From Polynucleobacter necessarius (GTDB lineage: Bacteria; Pseudomonadota; Gammaproteobacteria; Burkholderiales; Burkholderiaceae), in assembly GCA_900095165.1 (NCBI GenBank), contig LT606947.1, positions 620,001-684,000 on the forward strand: a stretch of 64,000 nucleotides of DNA. The letters are read 5' to 3'. The position numbers and the translations under genes were made by a program. How positions within the stretch are numbered: position 1 is the stretch's first letter; each line of letters begins with the position of its first letter. The notes under the pieces were generated by a model that made no database searches, was not told the DNA's origin, and was given only the letters and a program-made list of their open reading frames with translations. This document shows, piece after piece, positions 44,660-59,322 of this stretch.

Positions 44660-45298
44660 TATGGACAAAATTGACCCCATGAAATAAGTTATGAATCGCT
44701 ACCAATATCCTAGACACTTGCCAACCTCGCTTGGTACCGCTTTTCAAATACTACCGGAGATAAGCCATTGTTAGAACTATGGCGCCTGACCGGGTTGCAA
44801 AACAACTCAATGTAATTAAAGATATCTTCGCGTGCTTCACTTCCGGTGTTGTAGGTCTTGCGTTTGATTCGTTCTCGCTTAAGTAGCTGGAAGAAGCTTT
44901 CCACCACAGCATTGTCGTAACAGTTCCCCGTCGGCTCATGCTAGGCCGTTTGATCATCCCCCGCTAGGCATTGCTCAGCTGGTATCGCGTATTTATTGAC
45001 CTAGGCATACAGACTATGGGGTGATGTACCGAGCCTAGAGGTCATTTCTCGAACCCCAAAACCTCGCTCCACAGTTTTGAATTAACTGCAAGCATTAAAG
45101 CCGTTACATTTTTTAAAGGTTTTATACCTGAATCCTCTCGAAGCCCTATATTGATGCCGTATAAGTTGGCTACCCTCAGGTAGCTTCCACCTTTTAGATA
45201 TTCTTGAATTACTTTTGGCTTGAACTGCGTGCTGTATTTACTCATGAAGCCGATCCTTTTTAGTTGGATTGGGTGTCCAACTTTTGTGGGTCAGTTCA
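44660..45298 (-). mobile_element. scrambled IS3-family remnants
   Basis: On the minus strand: a terminal repeat TGAACTGACCCACAAAAG (from 45298), then the start of an orfA (MSKYSTQFKPKVIQEYLKGG, ATG near 45243). It runs into a different orfA fragment (VERGFGVREMTSRLGTSPHSLYA, then TAG in place of Trp), and finally the end of an orfB/DDE transposase. That last part has IKRPSMSRRG, a 1-base shift, then NCYDNAVVESFFQLLKRERI and ends QARLASV at 44710. A full IS3 element is 1.2-1.5 kb and only about 0.6 kb is left. At least two elements seem to be joined. The low-coordinate border (near TTGACCCC at 44670) is uncertain. Confidence 0.8.
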
Positions 45299-58249: not shown

Positions 58250-59213
58250 ATGAACCGCCTATTGCAGTTAGCGTTTGTAACTTGTTACTTCGTTTTGTCT
58301 GGCCTAGCTGTTGCCTATCCGAACAAACCGATAACGATTATTGTTCCTCAAGCACCTGGCGGCACTAACGACATTGTTGGTCGAGTTGTTGCACAACGTC
58401 TTGGTGAGCAAATGAAAACTTCGGTTATTGTCGAAAATAGACCAGGCGCTGGCGGCAATATTGGCACCCAGTTTGTTGCTAATGGGCCAAAAGATGGGTA
58501 CACCCTCTTGATGACTATAAGCAGCGCTCAAGCCATTAATCCAGCTCTCTATAAAAATCCCGGGTTTGATCCGGTCAACGACTTTGTTCCGCTGGCGATG
58601 ATCGGCTCAGTATCAAATGTGCTTGTGGTAAATCCTAATTTTCCAGCCAAAAAACTTAGAGGATTTCTTAAAGCTAGTTAAATCAAAGCCACCTGAGACC
58701 TATCAATATGCTTCAGCAGGAAATGGCACCCTCAACCACCTCTTAGGTGAAATGCTGAATCAAAACTACGGAATTTCCTTACAACACATTCCCTACAAAG
58801 GTGTGGCGCCAGCGCTCAATGACCTCTTAGGAGGTCAGGTTCAAATTGCATTCGCAAGCTTGCCATCTGTATTGCAATACATCAACTCACAAAAACTGAT
58901 TGCCCTTGGCGTGAGCTCATCAAAGCGCTCACCCGTTCTTCCAGATGTTCCATCCATTTCGGAAAAAGTGCCAGGTTTCTCGGGCTCACTATGGATTGGT
59001 CTATTTGCACCCAAAGGGACGCCTAAGCCCGTGGTAGATAAATTGCAAAAAGAAATGCAGCTCACGCTTGCAAATCCAGACTTAAAAGAAAAATTACAAA
59101 GCTCAGGTGTAGAGCTTGCAAGCATGACGTCGGCTGAATTCGCAAAACAGCTTCAAGACGATATTGCTCGTTGGGCCAAGATTGTTAAAGCCTCAGGCGC
59201 CTCTCTAGACTAA
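58250..59213 (+). pseudogene. TctC/Bug-family solute-binding protein, frameshift in an A-run
   Basis: A periplasmic receptor for a carboxylate taken up by a tripartite tricarboxylate transporter, or a lone Bug sensor. The signal peptide MNRLLQLAFVTCYFVLSGLAVA is followed by YPNKPITIIVPQAPGGTNDIVGR and RPGAGGNIGTQFVA. At FPAKK an A6 run (58650-58655 region) carries one extra A. The rest (LEDFLKLVKSKPPETYQYAS, then ASAGNGTLNHL, AFASLPSV) continues in another frame to 59213. No TctA/TctB genes are near. The 229 bases before it show only a small hairpin. Confidence 0.82.
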
Positions 59214-59236: not shown

Positions 59237-59322
59237 AAAAAAGCCCCATGCGATTGAACTGACCCATTTTAGTTGGATTGGGTGTTCAACTTTTGTGGGT
59301 CAGTTCAGATTCGGGGCTTTTT
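59237..59322. terminator. tctC/lpdA terminator interrupted by a mini-IS
   Basis: The arms AAAAAAGCCCC (59237-59247) and GGGGCTTTTT (59313-59322) form a bidirectional terminator. Its loop now carries a 53-bp element. Without the element and one GAT copy, the loop would be the nine bases ATGCGATTC. Confidence 0.7.
59255..59307. mobile_element. 53-bp mini-IS (IS3-type ends only)
   Basis: It starts TGAACTGACCCA and ends TGGGTCAGTTCA (12-bp perfect inverted repeat), flanked by GAT on both sides, a 3-bp duplication as IS3 elements make. Bases 59271-59307 match the end of the IS remnant at 45262-45298 with one mismatch. This is therefore that element's end with the whole inside deleted. Confidence 0.75.

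Follow-up and report, generated by a model that had tools for sequence, protein, structure and literature searches.

A 53-bp insert in a terminator loop of Polynucleobacter necessarius is probably the deletion scar of an IS3-family element

Nearly precise excision of the transposon Tn10 reportedly leaves a remnant of about 50 bp and is said to be independent of RecA and of transposase. The process goes back to Foster, Lundblad, Hanley-Way, Halling and Kleckner (1981) and to d'Alencon et al., as cited in the available parts of PMC12524634 and PMC5991714. MITEPsy1 is described, in the portion of its report available to us, as a 100-nt element present six times in strain 1448A and observed to transpose (PMC3189936). 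According to the accessible sections of the corresponding papers, the IS3-family elements IS1397, ISKpn1 and ISPsy8 insert in REP palindromes (Tobes and Pareja 2006, PMC1525189), and ISPpu9, an IS110-family element, carries a 5' leader that blocks translation (PMC8450116). Here, we analyzed a 64,000-nucleotide stretch (the window), which spans bases 620001-684000 of a single-contig genome of 1.89 Mb, and followed up a short palindromic insert that lies within a terminator.

The insert, which we refer to as a mini, is 53 bp long, occupies 59255-59307 (TGAACTGACCCA...TGGGTCAGTTCA) and has perfect 12-bp inverted ends. It is flanked by the trinucleotide GAT at 59252-59254 and 59308-59310, and the arms of the host terminator, AAAAAGCCCC (59238-59247) and GGGGCTTTTT (59313-59322), lie outside it. 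The host hairpin is placed between tctC on the plus strand and lpdA on the minus strand, gene names that we took from an earlier, sequence-only reading of this DNA. That reading had described a 53-bp element with a 3-bp GAT duplication in the loop of the tctC/lpdA terminator, and the sequence confirms it. Its statement that the element is made only of IS3-type ends also stands, with a correction to the idea of two IS ends: approximately 41 bp of the mini derive from the left end, leader hairpin included, and 12 bp from the right end. As had been noticed, 36 of 37 bases are shared with the relic of an IS end at 45262-45298, and the match extends to 40 of 41. The features of the site are as follows.

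59238-59247, no strand: left arm of the host lpdA/tctC terminator, AAAAAGCCCC (from the sequence; pairs with 59313-59322 in the fold; relatives have the hairpin without the insert)
59252-59254, no strand: target duplication GAT, left copy (from the sequence)
59255-59307, minus strand: 53-bp mini-element, with the left inverted repeat and leader end at 59307 (one crossover between the leader and right end of IS copy L129, 1 mismatch)
59255-59266, minus strand: IS right-end part, 12 bp, plus-strand reading TGAACTGACCCA (crossover at position 12)
59267-59307, minus strand: IS left-end part, inverted repeat plus leader hairpin, 41 bp (crossover at position 12; 40 of 41 bases as in the relic at 45258-45298)
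59308-59310, no strand: target duplication GAT, right copy (from the sequence)
59313-59322, no strand: right arm of the host terminator, GGGGCTTTTT (from the sequence and the fold)

The RNA of the mini-bearing terminator is predicted to form one long hairpin on either strand, in agreement with the earlier statement that the stem still pairs and that the insert itself folds. The predicted plus-strand structure has an energy of -46.4 kcal/mol (z approximately -8), and none of 200 shuffled sequences was equally stable. A simple terminator scan left the site uncalled because it permits loops of 3-8 only. Rfam returned no matches at the gathering score for nine loci (44,897 bases). The neighboring tctC (58250-59213) is broken into two ORFs, 58250-58681 and 58752-59213, probably by a frameshift or a stop.

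Full-length copies with the same ends, 1.41-1.45 kb in length, are found in the genus and elsewhere. They have the two ORFs of the IS3 family, with a DDE integrase core in OrfB: the OrfB of one copy (L137) matched the NCBIfam IS3 transposase model at 310 bits (cut-off 160) as well as Pfam rve. OrfA matched HTH_Tnp_1 and, at 50 bits and thus under that model's cut-off, the N-terminal part of the IS3 model. The parent may belong to the IS150-like subgroup. A search for relatives of the Polynucleobacter OrfA at E 0.001 found none in 25 of 32 mini-bearing genomes.

We examined the flanks of the full-length copies after dropping duplicates that agreed in leader and 12 flank bases, a step that also removed L183, L186 and L188; 33 of 35 copies had both flanks. 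Hairpin arms with a stem score of at least 7 bracketed 29 of these 33 (re-paired flanks: mean 11.4, largest 17), which argues that hairpin targeting is a property of the parent. The earlier suggestion that the terminator loop is a safe site is supported in a stronger form, since full-length elements sit in such hairpins too. Exact 3-bp duplications were present in 15/33 copies and exact 4-bp duplications in 9/33 (counts without a shuffled control), matching the 3-4 bp target duplications of the IS3 family.

The left end of the parent leads into a leader hairpin, one arm of which is the left inverted repeat; because of this, the far arm, located immediately upstream of the orfA start, is a repeat of the right end. 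The far arm reads GGGTCAG in one subtype and GGGGGT or TGGGGT in others. In the leader RNA of L137, an intact copy, the left repeat is predicted to pair with a segment that precedes the AUG and extends across it (z -4.5). The leaders of L196, L198 and L203, from several taxa, have a hairpin followed by TTTT(T) ahead of orfA and so have the look of an intrinsic terminator.

A pattern of the two ends 15-45 bases apart was searched in a collection of ~85,000 species genomes (257 Gb) and yielded 88 stretches with the architecture of the mini, 38-65 bp in length, against a chance expectation of ~0.45 from a simple equal-base estimate. Lengths concentrate at 45-48 and 51-53 bp. Going by the record titles, the minis are spread over Proteobacteria, Firmicutes, Actinobacteria, Spirochaetes, Bacteroidota and other phyla. 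The sequence-only reading had proposed a search for further copies; the same architecture recurs elsewhere, and the genome of the window holds just the one mini. Among 186 genomes of the genus, the exact end pair occurs in six. The 53-bp form with at most 2 mismatches was found at 10 places in eight of them; one of these (L223) is an intact IS leader, which we left out of the mini count, and with a 52-bp mini in G109 the genus total is 10 minis in 8/186 genomes. We re-searched 40 genomes of other taxa, a chosen subset of those behind the 88 stretches: 34 had one copy, four had 2-4, and two had none in that gap range. In E. coli, none of 5,426 genomes had a place covering 80% of a 47-base rhizobial mini.

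Removing duplicates and minis with fewer than 30 flank bases left 86 distinct minis. Flanking stems scored at least 7 in 55 of them (re-paired flanks: mean 10.75, largest 18). Of the same 86, 31 were flanked by an exact 3-bp duplication (re-paired mean 2.2) and 10 by an exact 4-bp duplication (mean 0.43), 41 in all. The other 31 minis had a stem score below 7; by eye, some of these sites resemble interrupted hairpins and others do not. A T-run on at least one strand accompanied only 40 of the 55 stem-flanked minis, and no terminator was recognisable at the site of L225. The host palindromes of Advenella and of an Alcaligenaceae MAG are repeats of the GTTCCCACGC type, which we call REP-like.

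Individual sites illustrate these targets. Polynucleobacter sp. AM-25C3 carries a mini in the TTCG loop of AAAACCACCTTCGGGTGGTTTTTT; within the same 8 kb, this terminator occurs uninterrupted in five further copies, some of them diverged. Short blocks of genes in the surrounding region (L031, 1029-7430) are separated by repeats resembling tRNA 3' ends together with this terminator, a layout that would fit successive integration of islets at a tRNA gene. On Rhizobium plasmids, ten records of one terminator, which adjoins a small gene close to nanR, comprise five minis, two one-ended leader remnants and three empty sites; the five minis are of at least two sequence types, and one is oppositely oriented. 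For the remnant in R. johnstonii TP60 (L233), we infer a deletion between the host arm and a similar stretch of the leader, GCAAAAACCCC, and the two remnants (L233 and L237) suggest a second deletion route, from host arm to leader. Among the open-access titles and abstract starts that our literature searches listed, none names IS3-family elements in terminator loops or minis of this kind.

The parent of the window's mini is absent from its own genome, where only relics are found. A 35-base IS end, searched with up to 3 mismatches, occurs at two places only. The relic within the window consists of two parts.

45258-45298, minus strand: decayed IS of the mini's family, left end with leader (sequence match)
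44680-45257, minus strand: remainder of the decayed IS, the orfA start and then a C-terminal orfB portion of IS3 type that looks unlike the parent's (translation and by-eye comparison; coordinates approximate)

As a whole, the relic (44680-45298, minus strand) looks like a chimera in which the terminator-targeting IS supplies the left end and the beginning of orfA, and a different IS3-type OrfB supplies the C-terminal part. Outside the window, at G000:C1:1522724 (L190), lies a decayed one-ended IS end of another subtype. It comes after AAAAAGCCATTCGAA, which resembles a terminator arm.

The sequence-only reading had also proposed comparing empty sites in relatives. A draw of 41 genomes of the genus, including the one analysed here, gave lpdA matches in 40; the remaining genome (G051) matched the IS end only. 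The loci of 29 of the 39 relatives were read, and the mini was absent from the lpdA terminator in all 29. A script recognized a terminator-like hairpin there in 24 and none in the other five, two of which (L165 and L168) show the hairpin by eye. In the best-matching relative (G096, L148), the terminator reads AAAAAAGCCCCGAGAGATCGGGGCTTTTTCTTAT. A genome outside the draw, G152, has a truncated IS end in its lpdA terminator (L121, 1340-1600), and the far half of that terminator is gone. We rejected this insertion as the window's event, since the truncated end is a different one and is oppositely oriented.

We compared nine pairs of mini and full-length IS, picked for their closest-looking leaders, taking both the leader and the right end from a single IS copy in each pair; two artefactual rows, in which the mini L226 had counted as a leader (for itself and for L008), were set aside. 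A single crossover between leader and right end reproduced five of these nine chosen minis with 0 mismatches and 5-7 bp of microhomology, so that the junction lies in a short direct repeat near both ends of the parent, as in nearly precise excision. In three of the five pairs, mini and IS copy share a genome: Herbaspirillum RV1423, a Mesorhizobium and a Burkholderiaceae MAG, respectively. In the remaining four pairs the mismatches numbered 1, 1, 1 and 4. The window's mini is among those with a single mismatch; its switch falls at position 12, one base past the shared GGGTCAG, with no exact overlap at the junction. The minis of Advenella mandrilli and Billgrantia each agree with a one-ended leader of their own genome over 45 of 52 bases, up to the junction. 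These junctions are all from Proteobacteria and from the minority of minis for which a cognate leader was available. At the level of the letters, the insertion, its target and the structure of its junction can be considered established.

The sizes of the elements fall into two classes. Counting exact end pairs within 2 kb in 17 genomes chosen for holding such ends, we found 31 full-length elements (1413-1451 bp), 12 minis and nothing intermediate. The 12 genomes of the genus contributed 22 full-length copies and four minis, and the five others contributed nine and eight; copies with decayed ends, such as the relic at 44680-45298, escape this count. The all-or-nothing distribution weighs against random internal deletions, which would give a spread of sizes.

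Collectively, these data favor an in-situ deletion as the origin of the mini, and we consider it probable that the 53 bp are the scar of a full-length IS3-family insertion. An element of ~1.44 kb that targets the loops of terminator-like hairpins would have entered the lpdA terminator loop and duplicated GAT. Its leader hairpin would pair the left inverted repeat with the stretch before the orfA start codon, and that stretch (GGGTCAG or GGGGGT) would thus be a direct repeat of the right inverted repeat. A replication error of the host, by template switch or slippage between the direct repeats and with the flanking palindromes helping, would then have deleted ~1.39 kb, fusing the leader with the terminal bases of the right end. 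The 53-bp remnant would allow the terminator stem to pair again as a longer hairpin, and the cost to the host would for that reason be small. What we infer is that the deletion took place in situ, that slippage caused it and that termination was regained. The proposal draws on the junction fits, the two size classes, the single copies, the hairpin target shared with full-length elements, the predicted leader fold, the empty sites in relatives and the proximity of most genus minis to a leader. It is weakened for the window's mini by the absent parent and the imperfect junction fit, and more broadly by the minis with poor stems, those lacking a T-run, the site of L225 and the 25 genomes without an OrfA relative. 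In addition, among the Rhizobium and Sinorhizobium plasmids and the loci that were read (some of the listed records), no site was full-length in one strain and a mini in another.

The sequence-only reading had raised the idea of a MITE-like mobile form. On this account, the mini would have arisen once by deletion and later been moved into the terminator by the transposase of a full-length IS acting in trans. We regard this as unlikely, and less likely than a scar formed in place. The mini does share the terminal inverted repeats, the target duplication and the absence of coding sequence of a MITE; the minis at large have intact ends, 3-4 bp duplications and the same type of target as the full-length IS. 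Against this, a MITE would be expected to multiply, and the mini is present once in its own genome, as minis are in 34 of the 40 re-searched genomes. The letter-for-letter match of five minis to a leader/right-end deletion of a full-length IS also speaks against it, as does the exact leader of an own-genome IS in the minis of Herbaspirillum, Mesorhizobium, the Burkholderiaceae MAG, Advenella and Billgrantia, all of them Proteobacteria. Counted as plain base differences over the first 41 bp, a short stretch, seven of the ten genus minis are closer to a leader of the IS than to another mini, one is at equal distance and two are nearer to each other. The equidistant one is the window's mini, with one difference from the leader of the relic and one from the mini of G060. 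The two in G134 (L008 and L226) are identical over the leader part and closer to each other than to any leader, and two minis of Advenella mandrilli (L041 and L054) are identical at different sites. Such pairs fit transposition in trans and keep the MITE reading alive. The oriented letters of L224 look reversed, and its distances mean little.

The transposase could also have made the minis directly, by using the repeat inside the leader as a false right end and moving the leader alone. The inner arm of the leader does resemble the right inverted repeat (GGGTCAG before the ATG), but the minis terminate in true right-end bases (TTCA or TCAGTTCA) and not in those of the leader (TCTCA, TTTTG), and we give this route very little credence; our search patterns demanded the true end and would miss copies ending in the leader. 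We dropped fold-back copying of the left end alone; the second end is without the left end's inner bases. A chance palindrome, or a native three-part terminator of no mobile origin, is next to inconceivable. Palindromes are common near terminators, which lends it little support, and against it stand the excess of 88 stretches over the chance expectation, the GAT target duplication and the 29 relatives without the insert, none of which shares the 53 bp without the GAT repeats.

If the minis are deletion scars with a predictable junction, they are a record of lost insertions and hint at how terminators struck by an IS recover; they would also connect the control of the transposase by the leader hairpin with the instability of the IS that encodes it. 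Small palindromes inserted in terminators are readily overlooked or labelled MITEs. More speculatively, the IS may carry its own undo switch, in that a leader hairpin shielding the transposase start codon forces a direct repeat of the right end, and targeting of terminator loops makes the deletion rebuild a closed terminator. If this tentative idea is correct, insertion into terminators would be a cheap, self-healing strategy, and the minis of 38-65 bp found across several phyla would amount to a fossil tally of earlier invasions, with the junction evidence coming from Proteobacteria.

The closest parallel to the deletion we propose is nearly precise excision of Tn10, which, as the available parts of PMC12524634 and PMC5991714 present it, likewise involves deletion between short direct repeats in the ends of the element, linked to inverted repeats and to copy-choice. 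In the minis, by contrast, the direct repeat is owed to the leader hairpin, one arm of which copies the right end; the scars occur in natural genomes, in terminator loops, and the remnant lengthens the terminator stem. MITEPsy1 is also short and non-coding, with inverted ends and target duplications, and is thought in the accessible text to derive from an IS by internal deletion (PMC3189936), whereas the minis are mostly single copies (34 of 40 genomes). The REP-targeting elements similarly offer a palindrome as the target of an IS3-family transposase, judging from the sections available (PMC1525189). Our parent IS differs in entering the loops of unrelated terminator-like hairpins, along with the REP-like palindromes of Advenella, and not one REP family. 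ISPpu9 is comparable in that a hairpin in the mRNA leader buries the ribosome-binding site of the transposase, as the portion at hand describes (PMC8450116); in the parent IS, one arm of the leader hairpin is the left inverted repeat itself. Finally, the pneumococcal SPRITE, a rho-independent terminator-like element, is another short repeat tied to terminators (PMC10969869, available in part); there the repeat is itself terminator-like, while the minis lie inside a terminator of the host.
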